Origin: Croceibacterium segetis
GTDB taxonomy: Bacteria > Pseudomonadota > Alphaproteobacteria > Sphingomonadales > Sphingomonadaceae
Direction: 5' to 3'
Assembly: GCF_011320115.1 (NCBI RefSeq)
Contig: NZ_JAANOZ010000003.1
Coordinates: forward strand, 248,001 to 312,000
DNA: 64,000 bases
Translations under genes and position numbers: made by a program
Shown here: one piece after another, positions 24,241 to 29,165 of the stretch
Position numbering within the stretch: position 1 is the first letter of the stretch
Layout of the letters: each line of letters opens with the position of its first letter
Notes under the pieces: generated by a model
Told to the model about the DNA's origin: nothing
Databases searched by the model: none
The model's input: only the letters and a program-made list of their open reading frames with translations

Positions 24241-24810
24241 ATGTTGCCGACCATTATCGTGATCGCGATCGTCGCGATTCTCATCTTCTGGGGAGTCGCC
24301 ATCTACAACCGCCTGGTGCGCCTGCGCGCGCTGGTGAAGGAGGGCTTCAGCGGCATCACGGTCCAACTCCGCCGCCGCGCCGACCTTGTGCCCAACCTCG
24401 TGAGCACGGTCGAAGGTTATGCCGCCCACGAGAAGAGCGTGCTCAACGAGGTCACCGCGCACCGCGCCGAGGCCGCCAATGCCGGCAGCGTGGCCGCCAC
24501 GGCGCAGGCGGACAATGCCTTTACCGGAATGCTCGGCCGGCTGATGGCCGTCGCCGAGGCCTATCCCGACCTCAAGGCCGACGACAACTTCCGCCAGTTG
24601 CAGAGCGAACTCAGCGAGATCGAGGAGCAGCTCCAGGGCGCACGGCGCTATTACAACGCCACCGTCCGCGACCTCAACAGCAGCATCCAGTCGTTCCCGA
24701 ACGTGCTGTTCGCGCGCCCGCTCGGCTTCAGCGAGGCTGAGTTCTACGCCGATGCCGATGCCTCGATCCAGCAGGCGCCGAAAGTCTCGTTCGACGCGGC
24801 CCAGGCCTGA
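24241..24810 (+). CDS. LemA family protein
   Basis: A 189-residue protein with one N-terminal membrane helix (residues 1-21) and the LemA core: YNRLVRLRALVKEGFSGI, RRRADLVPNLVSTVEGYAAHE, YPDLKADDNFRQLQSELSEIEEQ and RRYYNATVRDLNSSIQSFPN. The soluble part is a long helical bundle facing the periplasm or cytoplasm. Function is poorly known. It is followed after four bases by a DUF2207 gene, a very common partner, so the two are likely one functional unit at the membrane. Confidence 0.92.
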   Translation: MLPTIIVIAIVAILIFWGVAIYNRLVRLRALVKEGFSGITVQLRRRADLVPNLVSTVEGYAAHEKSVLNEVTAHRAEAANAGSVAATAQADNAFTGMLGRLMAVAEAYPDLKADDNFRQLQSELSEIEEQLQGARRYYNATVRDLNSSIQSFPNVLFARPLGFSEAEFYADADASIQQAPKVSFDAAQA

Positions 24811-24814
24811 TTGC

Positions 24815-26737
24815 ATGATCCGCGCGACGCGGCTGCTGGCGCTGCTCGCCGCGGCGCTGGCGTTCCTCCTGCCGGGAGCGGCTCTCGCCGACGAACGCAT
24901 CCTTTCCTGGCGCAGCGACATCGCCGTGCGCGCCGACGGGGCGCTCGATGTGAGCGAGACCATCCGCGTCAACGTCGAAGGCAACCGGATCCAGCACGGC
25001 ATCTTCCGCGATTTCCCGACCACTTACGGCAAGGACGGACGGCGCGTTCGCGTCGGCTTCGACGTCGCCAGCGTCGAGCGCGACGGCCAGCCCGAGCCAT
25101 ACGACACACAGCGCGGCGGCAACGGCGTGCGCGTCCAGATCGGCTCGGGCGACAAATACCTCGACTATGGCGAGCACTCCTACACCATCCATTACACGAC
25201 GACGCGCCAGCTCGGCTTCTTCGAGGGCTACGACGAGCTCTACTGGAACGTCACCGGCAACGGCTGGGCCTTCCCGATCGACATGGCCGAAGCGCATATC
25301 CGCCTGCCGCAACCTGTGCCGTTCGGTCCCGAGCGCGCAGTCTATACCGGTCCGCAAGGCGCGACCGGATACGCCGCCAAGGTCGTTTCCGAGGGGCCTG
25401 GCGAGATCGTTTTCCGCACCACCGAGCCGCTCGGGCCTTACGAGGGCCTGACGGTGGCGGTGCGCTGGCCCAAGGGCGTGGTCGCCGAACCGCCCAAGCC
25501 GTCGGGCGCACGACTGACGTTGCAGGAACAGGCGCCGCGCGCCGGGGCGCTGGCGGCCTTGCTCGGCCTGCTGGTTTATTACTTCTTCGCCTGGAAGCGC
25601 GCCGGCCGTGGTCCGCGCGCGGGCACGGTGGTGCCGCTGTTCACCCCGCCCGACGCCATGTCCGCCGCGGCGGTCCGCTACGTCAAGCGCATGGGCTTCG
25701 ACGACCGCTGCTTCGCCGCCGCGATCGTCGAGAGCGGCGTGCACCGCGAGCTGAAGCTGGTGGAAAGCGACGAGGGATTCTTCCACAGCAAGAAGACCAC
25801 CCTGGAGAAGACTACCGGACAGGGCGGCCTTCCACCGCCCGAACACGCCATGCTCAGCTCGCTGTTCGCCGGCAGCCACACAATCGAGATGGACAACAAG
25901 AACCACGCCCGCTTCGCCCTCGCGCGCAAGGCCCTGAGCGACGGGCTGGAGGAGATCTACAAGGATAGGACCTTCGTCAGGAACCAGGGCTGGGCGTGGA
26001 TGGGCGTGGCTTTGGTGTTCACCGCGATGTTGCTGATCGCCGCCGCCATCGCCTTCTCGGACTTCTACAGCACCTCGGCGGAGCGTTTCGTGCCGGCGCT
26101 GGGGCTGGCGCTGATGCTCGCCGCCGCGTGGCTCGTCTCCCGTCATCGCAAGGGCTGGGTGAATGGCTTGTCGATTGCCGCGTTGATGCTTGGCGGAATT
26201 GTCCTGTTCGGCATCGCCTTCGTCCGGCTGACCCAGATCGAGCCCGCCGGGACCTGGGCCTGCATGCTGGCCCCGCTGGCGATGCTGCCCCTGGTCCTGT
26301 CGGCTTTCGCCTGGATGAGCGCGCCGACGAAGGAGGGCCGCGCGCTGATGGACCGCATCGCCGGGTTCGAGCAGTACCTCTCGATCACCGAGGAGGACCG
26401 GCTCGAGGCAATGCATCCGCCGGAGAAGACGCCCGAACTGTTCGAACGCTACCTTCCCCATGCCATCGCGCTGGGAGTCGAGAACCGCTGGGCCGACAAG
26501 TTCGCCGCCGTGCTCGCCGCGGCCGAGACGGATCCCACCCGGCAGGGGAGCACGTTCGGCTGGTATTCGGGGCACGGCAACGTCTGGTCCGATCCGGGCC
26601 GGTTCGCCGGCACCGTCGGTTCGTCACTCGCCAGCAGCATCTCCTCGGCATCGACCGCGCCCGGCTCCAGCAGCGGGTCGGGCGGCGGTGGCTCCTCGGG
26701 CGGCGGCGGCGGCGGCGGGGGTGGCGGTGGCTGGTAA
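24815..26737 (+). CDS. DUF2207 membrane protein with Gly/Ser-rich tail
   Basis: A 640-residue protein: signal peptide (ending near GAALADER), a long extracytoplasmic domain of about 220 residues (ILSWRSDIAVRADGALDVSE, IQHGIFRDFPTTY), a membrane helix (AGALAALLGLLVYYFFAWKR), a cytoplasmic segment, then two or three more hydrophobic helices (about 420-530). It ends in a low-complexity tail with a run of eleven glycines before the final Trp. This matches the DUF2207 family, which is usually paired with LemA as here. Function unknown. An in-frame start further upstream lies inside lemA and is not supported. Confidence 0.88.
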   Translation: MIRATRLLALLAAALAFLLPGAALADERILSWRSDIAVRADGALDVSETIRVNVEGNRIQHGIFRDFPTTYGKDGRRVRVGFDVASVERDGQPEPYDTQRGGNGVRVQIGSGDKYLDYGEHSYTIHYTTTRQLGFFEGYDELYWNVTGNGWAFPIDMAEAHIRLPQPVPFGPERAVYTGPQGATGYAAKVVSEGPGEIVFRTTEPLGPYEGLTVAVRWPKGVVAEPPKPSGARLTLQEQAPRAGALAALLGLLVYYFFAWKRAGRGPRAGTVVPLFTPPDAMSAAAVRYVKRMGFDDRCFAAAIVESGVHRELKLVESDEGFFHSKKTTLEKTTGQGGLPPPEHAMLSSLFAGSHTIEMDNKNHARFALARKALSDGLEEIYKDRTFVRNQGWAWMGVALVFTAMLLIAAAIAFSDFYSTSAERFVPALGLALMLAAAWLVSRHRKGWVNGLSIAALMLGGIVLFGIAFVRLTQIEPAGTWACMLAPLAMLPLVLSAFAWMSAPTKEGRALMDRIAGFEQYLSITEEDRLEAMHPPEKTPELFERYLPHAIALGVENRWADKFAAVLAAAETDPTRQGSTFGWYSGHGNVWSDPGRFAGTVGSSLASSISSASTAPGSSSGSGGGGSSGGGGGGGGGGGW

Positions 26738-26794
26738 CCTTGCCGAGGGCCGTCGAAGCGCCTAAATAGGGGACGGCGGGACTGCCCGGCACGC

Positions 26795-26921
26795 GCCGAT
26801 CGAATATCCCTGAGGCTATAAGCAATCCTTGGGAGCTGTCCCTGCCCGGTCCACGGGTTCGTCCTGAGGGCCGGTGCATATGGTTCCCACCTGACGTTAG
26901 GCGTCAGAGGATTTCTCCGGC
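26795..26921 (+). ncRNA. ssrS: Probable 6S RNA
   Basis: This 266-base gap carries no credible protein gene but folds as a 6S-like rod. The closing stem pairs 26795-26814 with 26905-26921 (GCCG/CGGC, GAA/TTC, ATCC/GGAT and CTGA/TCAG, with small bulges). A middle stem pairs TGGGA (26830-26834) with TCCCA. An apical stem pairs CCGGTCC with GGGCCGG and closes on GGG-UUCG-UCC. Unpaired central strands lie between them, and an alternative hairpin CTGACG-ttag-gCGTCAG sits in the 3' half, as described for alphaproteobacterial 6S RNA. The position between zapA and the 5-formyl-THF ligase gene is the classic one. Ends are approximate; a further TGGTGG/CCACCA hairpin follows at about 26930-26953. Confidence 0.6.
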
Positions 26922-27012
26922 TCCGACCCATGGTGGTTCCGCCACTTCCACCAGCTAGAAAATTGACGCTCCGCGCGCCTTCGCCCTACAAGTGGGGCCT
27001 TGAGTGGGGCGG

Positions 27013-27846
27013 ATGGACGTGCAGCGGTTCGGGGTAGTCGAATTCGACCCGGCGCAGCGCCGGTTGACGGTCAAGGGCCGTCCAGTCGAGCTTGACCGTT
27101 CTTCGGCCGCCATTCTCTCGATTCTCGTCGGCGAGGCTCCCGGGGAAGTCGGCAAGGACCGACTTCTCGAAGCCGGTTGGCCGGGCCGCCTGGTGCATGA
27201 AAATTCGCTCGCCAAGGCGATAAGTCGCCTGCGCCAGGCCTTGGGCGCGGATGGCGAAGCGCTCGAGACGGTCCACGGCTACGGCTATCGCTTGGCCGCA
27301 AACGTCGAAACGGGCGCGGCCACCACCCCGCAGCATGCGGCGCACTTGCGCAAGCCGGCCCGCAGCCTGACGGTCCTCGTGCTGACCGCGATCATCGCCG
27401 TGGCGGCATGGGGCGCGATCGAATTCCAGGGCAGCCGCGCGCGCCACGTGGTCAACGGCGAATCGGCCGAATCCGTCGGCCGCGTCCTGTGGGTGGACGA
27501 TCATCCCGACAACAATCTCGACGAACGGCGCTACCTCGAACAGCACAAGATCGCGTTCTACCGCGTCGCCAATACCGAGGAAGCGCTCTCGCTCCTGCAG
27601 ATGTACGCCTATGGCGCGGTGATCTCGGACATGGGCCGCGGCGACCGGCCGCTTGCAGGAATCGACTTGCTCAAAGGAATGCGCGCGCGGGGCGATGGGC
27701 GGCCGTTCATTCTCTACACCGTCTATCCCTCGGACGCGCAGCGCAAGCTGCTCGCCGACTACGGCGGCCAGGGCGTCGCGGCAACGCCCGGCGAGCTCTA
27801 CGCCGCGCTGCTGCCGCTGTTCGGCCAAGCGCCTGTCGCGGACTAG
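27013..27846 (+). CDS. Membrane-anchored winged-helix regulator with degenerate receiver domain
   Basis: About 277 residues. Residues 1-97 form an OmpR/CadC-type winged helix (FDPAQRRLTVKGRPVEL, ENSLAKAISRLRQAL, ETVHGYGYRLAA). A basic stretch HLRKPARS and one hydrophobic helix (119-138) follow. Residues 157-270 resemble a response-regulator receiver: acidic pair D162/D163 (WVDDHPD), candidate phospho-acceptor D206 (VISDMGRG) and T236 (ILYTVYP), but the conserved lysine position reads ATPG, with T258. A winged helix in the cytoplasm plus one membrane span would place the receiver in the periplasm, where no phosphodonor is known. ATG 27013 or GTG 27004 could be the start. Target genes are unknown. 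Confidence 0.78.
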   Translation: MDVQRFGVVEFDPAQRRLTVKGRPVELDRSSAAILSILVGEAPGEVGKDRLLEAGWPGRLVHENSLAKAISRLRQALGADGEALETVHGYGYRLAANVETGAATTPQHAAHLRKPARSLTVLVLTAIIAVAAWGAIEFQGSRARHVVNGESAESVGRVLWVDDHPDNNLDERRYLEQHKIAFYRVANTEEALSLLQMYAYGAVISDMGRGDRPLAGIDLLKGMRARGDGRPFILYTVYPSDAQRKLLADYGGQGVAATPGELYAALLPLFGQAPVAD

Positions 27847-27922
27847 GCCTGGCGGCAAATTCATAACTTTTCAGAACTCGGCAAAGACTCGCCTTCCGTC
27901 GCCGGCCTAGGCCGCTCGCGAC

Positions 27923-28528
27923 ATGAACGCCTCGCCCGATCTCGACGGCCTGCTGCCTTCCGCCCCAATGCTGGCGGCTGCGCTCGACCTGATAGCGGAT
28001 GCGGTGGCGATCGTTCGCGCCGACGGCCGGGTGGTGTTCGCCAACCGCGCGATGCACCGCGCGCTCGACGAACGGCGGCTGCTGGGGATGTACGGAGGGC
28101 GCCTGGCGCCCTGCGATCCGGAGGCGGCGCCATGCTTCGGTCGCATGCTGTGTGCCGCTAGCCGCGGAAAGCCGGTCTCGCCGCTGGCGCTACCCTCCCC
28201 TGGACGACCCGCCACGATCAAGGCCGAGCCGCTCGAGGGGGGAGCGAGGTGGCCGGCCGGCAAAGCCTTGCTGCTCGTCGCGCTCGACGACCCGCAGCGG
28301 CCGCTCCGCGACGGAGTCGACCGCATTGCGCGACAATTCGGACTGACCCCGCGCGAAGCGACCATCGGCGCGCATCTCGCGGCCGGCTGGCGGATCGGCG
28401 AGATTGCTTCGACGATTGGCGTTTCGCGCAACACCGTCCGCTCGCATGCCGCTCTGCTGCGCGAAAAGCTCGGCGAGCACAGCGCGCTGGCGGTGGCGGC
28501 GCGCTTCCGCTCAGCCACCGCAATCTAG
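27923..28528 (+). CDS. LuxR-type transcriptional regulator with PAS-like N-terminus
   Basis: A 201-residue soluble protein. The N-terminal half resembles a truncated PAS domain (LDLIADAVAIVRADGRVVFANRAMHRAL). The C-terminal 65 residues form a LuxR/FixJ-type helix-turn-helix (FGLTPREATIGAHLAAGWRIGEIASTIGVSRNTVRSH in overlapping parts). The sensor ligand is unknown; two cysteines (PCDPEAAPCFGRM) lie in the PAS-like part. It follows the membrane-anchored regulator by 76 bases in the same direction. Only the HTH part is firm. Confidence 0.76.
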   Translation: MNASPDLDGLLPSAPMLAAALDLIADAVAIVRADGRVVFANRAMHRALDERRLLGMYGGRLAPCDPEAAPCFGRMLCAASRGKPVSPLALPSPGRPATIKAEPLEGGARWPAGKALLLVALDDPQRPLRDGVDRIARQFGLTPREATIGAHLAAGWRIGEIASTIGVSRNTVRSHAALLREKLGEHSALAVAARFRSATAI

Positions 28529-28574: not shown

Positions 28575-29165
28575 ATGTCCGAACCCGATATCGCCGCGCA
28601 AAAGAAAGAGATCCGCAACCGCTTGCGCAAGGCACGCGTCGAATATGCCGCCGGCTTGCCGCCGGAAATCAGCTCGCTCGTGTTCCACCGTCCGCCGGCG
28701 GCCGTGCTCGAACTAATTCCTGACGACGCGGTGATCGGCCTCTATCGCGCCGATCCGGGCGAGGCTCCGGCCAATTCCTACGCGAAGTTCTTCTTCGAGC
28801 GCGGCCACACCATCGCCCTGCCCTGGCTGGTCGATCTGCAGACGCCGATGATCTTCCGCCAGCACACCGATCCTTACGCCGAAAGCGACCTCGCCAAGGG
28901 TTACTTCGACCTGATGCAGGGCAGCGACGAGGCGCCCGAGGTGGTGCCCGACGTGTTGTTCATGCCCCTCGTCGCCTTCACCGCCGACGGCCACCGGCTC
29001 GGCCAGGGCGGCGGGTTCTACGACAAGTGGCTTGGCGCCCATCCGCAGACGATCCGCTTCGGCCTCGCCTGGGACATGCAGGAGGTGCCCGAATTGCCCA
29101 ACGAGTGGCACGACATGCCGCTGACCGGTGTAATCACCCCTACCCGGCTGCTCGGTCCGTTCTGA
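28575..29165 (+). CDS. 5-formyltetrahydrofolate cyclo-ligase
   Basis: A 196-residue enzyme that converts 5-formyl-THF to 5,10-methenyl-THF using ATP (MTHFS, ygfA/fau family). Landmarks: AAQKKEIRNRLRKAR at the start, DVLFMPLVAFTADGHRLGQGGGFYDKWL for the phosphate-binding loop, and the closing PLTGVITPTRLLGP. A longer upstream reading inside the LuxR-type gene is not supported; the chosen ATG lies after GGGGA. It shares one base with the DUF2842 gene (TGATG). Together with zapA and 6S RNA this is the classic folate-ligase neighbourhood. Confidence 0.92.
   Translation: MSEPDIAAQKKEIRNRLRKARVEYAAGLPPEISSLVFHRPPAAVLELIPDDAVIGLYRADPGEAPANSYAKFFFERGHTIALPWLVDLQTPMIFRQHTDPYAESDLAKGYFDLMQGSDEAPEVVPDVLFMPLVAFTADGHRLGQGGGFYDKWLGAHPQTIRFGLAWDMQEVPELPNEWHDMPLTGVITPTRLLGPF

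Follow-up and report, generated by a model that had tools for sequence, protein, structure and literature searches.

Receiver domains are among the commonest signalling domains of bacteria; descriptions place them in the cytoplasm and generally under the control of kinases. Regulators of the ToxR/CadC type (TTRs) share an N-terminal cytoplasmic OmpR-type winged helix, one transmembrane (TM) helix and a periplasmic C-terminal sensor (PMC10269533, PMC9214523). Response_reg domains occur in 9.2% of TTRs, and the proteins with such domains have been treated as hybrid two-component proteins (PMC10269533). In a recent review of pseudo-receivers, about 80% lacked an acidic second residue in the DD pair, the periplasm was not mentioned (PMC12632262), and what the fold senses without phosphorylation was called a mystery (PMC12632262, 2025). 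Receivers in conflict systems function without histidine kinases (PMC8195603, PMC7824862).

The regulator described here is encoded in a 64,000-nucleotide stretch of Croceibacterium segetis DNA (the window) and shares the TTR layout; its predicted periplasmic domain differs in having a receiver fold instead of the sensor folds of CadC, ToxR or VtrA. It most likely works like ToxR or CadC, as a new sensor variant within that group. The explanation that we favour, with reasonable but far from complete confidence, is a ToxR/CadC-type one-component regulator with a periplasmic receiver as sensor, a cation-binding pocket in that receiver and neighbouring surface proteins as targets. If true, this would add a new sensor type to the ToxR-like regulators, and an extracytoplasmic receiver with an intact metal pocket would show what the fold senses without phosphorylation. 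The features are listed in Table 1.

Table 1. Features of the window and of compared loci (L numbers); numerical positions without a locus are those of the window.
Feature	Position or locus	Strand	Basis
Membrane-spanning one-component regulator of 277 aa (winged helix, one TM, receiver)	27013..27846	+	Pfam, AlphaFold2, 43 same-architecture loci
Winged-helix DNA-binding domain, residues 1-101, predicted cytoplasmic	27013..27315	+	PF00486, ToxR DBD match
Transmembrane helix, residues 118-140	27364..27432	+	Hydrophobicity, flank charges, AlphaFold2 helix
Receiver-fold domain, residues 156-270, predicted periplasmic	27478..27822	+	PF00072, PorX REC, homologue Cys count
D162-D163 codons, acidic metal-binding pair	27496..27501	+	40/40 homologues
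D206 codon, phospho-acceptor position	27628..27630	+	40/40 homologues
T236 codon	27718..27720	+	40/40 homologues
T258 codon, conserved-Lys position	27784..27786	+	Homologue alignment
PAS-LuxR regulator, 201 aa	27923..28528	+	PF13188, PF00196
6S RNA, left border of insert	26776..26943	+	RF00013, 38.1 bits (cut-off 46.4), E 1.6e-5
5-formyltetrahydrofolate cyclo-ligase (5-FCL), right border	28575..29165	+	PF01812, E 3e-21
Promoter-like TTGACG-18-TACAAG ahead of regulator	26963..26992	+	By eye, alignment; weak
Loci with downstream lipoprotein	L007/L086, L085, L087, L088/L093, L089, L091/L148/L153		
Lipoproteins downstream of regulator	L092:636-3803, L134:1913-5179		Assigned by eye
TIR protein with related receiver	L042		
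KAP NTPases with related receiver	L012, L022		
Caspase-like protein, TM ahead of related receiver	L010		
Short proteins, N-terminal TM segments and related receiver	L009, L043, L044, L058, E. coli L160		
1815-aa protein, two related receivers	L157		

The open reading frame starts with ATG at 27013, and an in-frame GTG is also present at 27004. Pfam recognised both domains above the gathering cut-offs (Trans_reg_C, PF00486, residues 22-94, E 1.1e-10; Response_reg, PF00072, residues 158-253, E 1.2e-7). The AlphaFold2 model, built from a 40-sequence alignment (pLDDT 89.5 overall), comprised a winged helix (3-101), a helix (118-140) and a β-α-β-α-β-α-β-α-β-α domain (156-270), that is, a (βα)5 receiver fold modelled at pLDDT 93-98; the domains are probably free to orient independently, which would account for the pTM of 0.53. 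In comparisons with Foldseek and VIA-align, the best receiver matches were PorX (Z 18.1, rmsd 1.8, 117 residues) and PmrA, and DivK and CheY4 were also among the receivers matched. The N-terminal domain resembled the ToxR DNA-binding domain on toxT DNA (8b4d; Z 16.1, 100 residues, 30% identity), as expected of the OmpR-type winged helix of a TTR, and was also near those of CadC (5ju7) and PhoB. Pfam, hydrophobicity and AlphaFold2 thus agreed on the architecture proposed in the initial annotation (a winged helix, one span and a receiver-like domain), and the C-terminal domain proved to be a true receiver fold. The genome contained one full-length copy, and three other matches covered the winged helix only. 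The regulator reached no equivalog cut-off in NCBIfam and matched none of the PADLOC models. A 'hya' RNA match that fell within the gene but well short of the cut-off (E 0.54) was attributed to chance, and phmmer matches of the receiver to pentatricopeptide designs were considered spurious.

Homologues were collected by tblastn in genomes and by profile searches, which yielded 43 loci with the same architecture. The window protein has a lone hydrophobic segment (residues 118-136; Kyte-Doolittle 19-residue mean 2.26, runner-up 0.96), and one strong segment was likewise present in 43/43 loci (19-residue means 1.5-2.9), with the second-best segment at 1.74 or below throughout. Within 15 residues of the helix, Lys and Arg numbered 122 on the N-terminal side and 51 on the C-terminal side, and 36 of the 41 distinct sequences had more of them on the N-terminal side. 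Unpaired Cys is generally avoided in domains that fold outside the cytoplasm, and the Cys count therefore provides an independent test of topology. Across 40 proteins, Cys accounted for 75 of 4106 residues in the winged helix and for only 1 of 5536 beyond the TM helix (Fisher p = 4.7e-27). The latter count was also lower than in the cytoplasmic receivers that eight of these genomes encode (18/3237; p = 1.9e-7) and in same-family receivers from other architectures (4/1312; p = 0.006), although the sequences are related to one another and the p-values overstate their independence. One of the 30 control receiver sequences, which was in the wrong reading frame, was excluded from the test. The single span, the positive-inside bias and the near-total Cys avoidance, together with the exported neighbours described below, strongly argue for a cytoplasmic winged helix and a periplasmic receiver. 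This is the N-in/C-out orientation of TTRs, and it upholds the placement originally derived from the positive-inside rule.

A cytoplasmic histidine kinase cannot act across the membrane to phosphorylate a receiver, and the topology therefore strongly suggests that this receiver works without phosphotransfer. To our knowledge, histidine-kinase phosphotransfer is not known from the periplasm, and our search of the open-access literature found no paper on a periplasmic receiver domain. Since no kinase is known to reach the receiver, the regulator probably senses something other than kinase-derived phosphate; the ligand, protein or divalent cation sensing proposed in its place remains plausible. 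OmpR/PhoB-family response regulators contain both of its domain types, but here their order is reversed, a TM helix separates them, the Lys is lost and the receiver is predicted to lie outside the cytoplasm, beyond the reach of a cytoplasmic kinase. Provided that the topology holds, the protein does not qualify as a conventional two-component response regulator.

The active site was largely retained. The window protein has D162/D163, D206 and T236, with T258 in place of the conserved Lys, as first read. Of the five receiver residues tested (DD, D, T and K), only the Lys failed, and the other four were invariant in 40 homologues, as were P165, N167, N168, E171, R209, G216, R224 and Y235. The Lys position was occupied by D in 21 homologues, E in 7, T in 6, K in 3, N in 2 and S in 1; an acidic residue thus stood there in 28/40, compared with Thr in the window protein. 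The term 'degenerate' previously applied to the domain therefore overstates the change. The loss of Lys makes it a pseudo-receiver by the published definition (PMC12632262). A decayed, functionless receiver was ruled out, as the active-site residues were the most conserved positions of the regulator. By comparison with the pseudo-receivers of that review, the domain fully keeps the metal-binding pair, is predicted to be extracytoplasmic and stands in the opposite order to OmpR/PhoB proteins. The invariant acceptor Asp and Thr are also what phosphotransfer would need; however, retention of the metal site combined with a change from Lys to an acid suggests that the pocket binds a cation rather than a phosphoryl group.

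Members of the family were found in sphingomonads, Shewanella, Ferrimonas, Rheinheimera and others. The other sphingomonad copies, with five further intact loci, were 44-56% identical to the window regulator, and those of Shewanella, Ferrimonas, Rheinheimera and relatives were 31-44% identical. One additional sphingomonad copy (L084, 5702-6730) has its receiver C-terminus out of frame and is either a broken gene or a sequencing error. The full-length regulator was present in a handful of the 299 genomes of the host's family, where the remaining matches covered the winged helix only, and the full architecture occurred in 29 of 96 genomes of the Shewanella-containing family. This patchy distribution may point to horizontal transfer. 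A phage or plasmid source of the receiver was rejected: no phage match was found, and the single match in the plasmid collection was an E. coli record filed as a 4.9-Mb plasmid. In that match (L160, 3568-6357), from a gull isolate, an ATPase gene and a gene for a two-TM receiver protein lie beside guaA, possibly as a defence island.

The genes beside the regulator point to likely targets. In 6-7 of about 12 gammaproteobacterial syntenic contexts, the regulator gene was immediately followed by a same-strand lipoprotein gene, whereas a lipobox was found by the same rule in 7 of 302 other flanking genes (binomial p = 6e-8 for 6/11 and 4e-7 for 6/14). These lipoproteins belonged to differing families, several with PKD, Big_9, cadherin-like or Ig-like domains in Pfam. 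In one of them (L092), caspase/legumain-like motifs (DHGSG, SCFSGG) were seen by eye; Pfam recognised PKD/Ig-type domains alone. L085 and L095 share the same flanks, and the lipoprotein gene of L085 is missing from L095, which suggests a variable cassette. Two sphingomonad copies precede genes for passenger-type surface proteins, one with an autotransporter domain (L082) and one with passenger repeats (L083, in which the C-terminus extends beyond the fetched stretch). In two others (L005, L081), the regulator is divergent from a gene for a signal-peptide-bearing and probably outer-membrane protein. No exported neighbour was found downstream of the Shewanella copies beside pepB or the Ferrimonas copies beside clcA, nor was an exported surface-protein gene directly downstream in the window. 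Because lipoprotein and autotransporter-type genes adjoin copies of the regulator, we infer that members of the family tend to regulate neighbouring genes for exported surface proteins. None of the loci read closely had a histidine kinase gene directly beside the regulator.

Under the favoured explanation, the pocket (DD, D and T, often with a fourth acid at the Lys position) would bind a divalent cation, alone or together with an anionic ligand. Binding would alter receiver dimerisation or membrane contact, and the altered state would change DNA binding by the winged helix, which would control the exported surface proteins encoded beside the regulator. A broader proposal, which we advance only tentatively, is that the loci represent a kinase-free, metal- or ligand-gated periplasmic receiver family in which the Lys is mostly replaced by an acid and which controls adjacent variable surface-protein cassettes. 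Spread of this family between sphingomonads and mostly marine gammaproteobacteria is suggested.

The periplasmic receiver might instead be a protein-interaction module for an adjacent lipoprotein or envelope protein, with an acid pocket that serves folding only. VtrA/VtrC and ToxR/ToxS use a periplasmic partner encoded next door (PMC9214523), and exported proteins are frequent neighbours of the present family. However, no conserved adjacent gene for a periplasmic partner emerged; the neighbours come from unrelated families and are at times missing, as would be expected of regulated targets more than of a fixed partner, and the strongest conservation lies in the active site. This alternative is unlikely, yet it is the one that we take most seriously. 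We consider it improbable that the helix is a hairpin or peripheral segment and not a true span, so that both domains would be cytoplasmic and the receiver a conventional or auxiliary phosphorylation target. The retained D/D/D/T set is consistent with such a role, and the receiver has cousins in TIR, KAP NTPase and two-TM proteins that are probably cytoplasmic, but the single straight 23-residue helix, the charge bias, the one Cys in 5536 residues past the helix and the lack of an adjacent kinase gene at the loci read closely all argue against it.

An enzymatic receiver, that is, a periplasmic relative of cRec signalling by phosphate-ester turnover, appears very improbable. The regulator family does keep the catalytic Asp, as do cRec domains, which occur without histidine kinases (PMC7824862); nevertheless, the regulator loci have no enzymatic context, and an acid at the Lys position would be unfavourable for phosphoryl binding. 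The notion that the winged-helix and PAS-LuxR proteins form a dedicated two-regulator system is harder still to credit. Their genes lie on the same strand, 76 bp apart, as insertions flanked by one and the same pair of conserved features. The PAS-LuxR gene, which does follow in the same direction as first described, is nevertheless missing from the corresponding site of the closest same-synteny relative (G192, with a regulator about 56% identical). No relative at E 1e-15 was found among the 298 other genomes of the family, and no PAS-LuxR gene stood beside other regulator loci in the neighbour comparison. The small signalling system originally envisaged was accordingly rejected, the adjacency not being conserved.

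For the receiver of the favoured one-component regulator, the nearest relatives outside this architecture were 27-33% identical (E 4e-35 to 1e-21) and occurred in the diverse proteins listed in Table 1, of which the TIR and KAP proteins matched PADLOC defence models. The TIR, KAP and TM fusions agree with the literature on conflict-system receivers (PMC8195603, PMC7824862). Together with the window receiver, these cousins make up one Lys-poor 'WVDDxPxNN' family, which is likely a conflict-system receiver family. Compared with conflict-system receivers, including cRec, the regulator receiver is joined to a transcription factor and predicted to lie across the membrane from them; its gene context also differs from the NAD/ADPr context of cRec. 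The Thr that is invariant in the regulators was, by eye, mostly Ala in the cousins.

In the window, the regulator appears to be part of an insert. In sister genomes, 5-FCL directly follows 6S RNA, whose orthologues there scored 56.2 and 46.5 bits; LemA, DUF2207, 6S RNA and 5-FCL are contiguous in two genomes of the same genus (G137, G233), and 6S RNA and 5-FCL in G067. The regulator sits between 6S RNA and 5-FCL in the window and in G192, and the PAS-LuxR protein (PAS_8, PF13188, at 17-69; GerE, PF00196, at 141-190) was added in the window only. The promoter-like block ahead of the regulator has a counterpart in G192 (TTGACG-18-TACTAT); a private promoter is no more than suggested, because a consensus promoter scan did not report the block. 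Upstream of the 6S RNA, genes for LemA and DUF2207 membrane proteins (24241-26737) were observed, and the same arrangement beside 6S RNA recurs in three of four further genomes from this genus.
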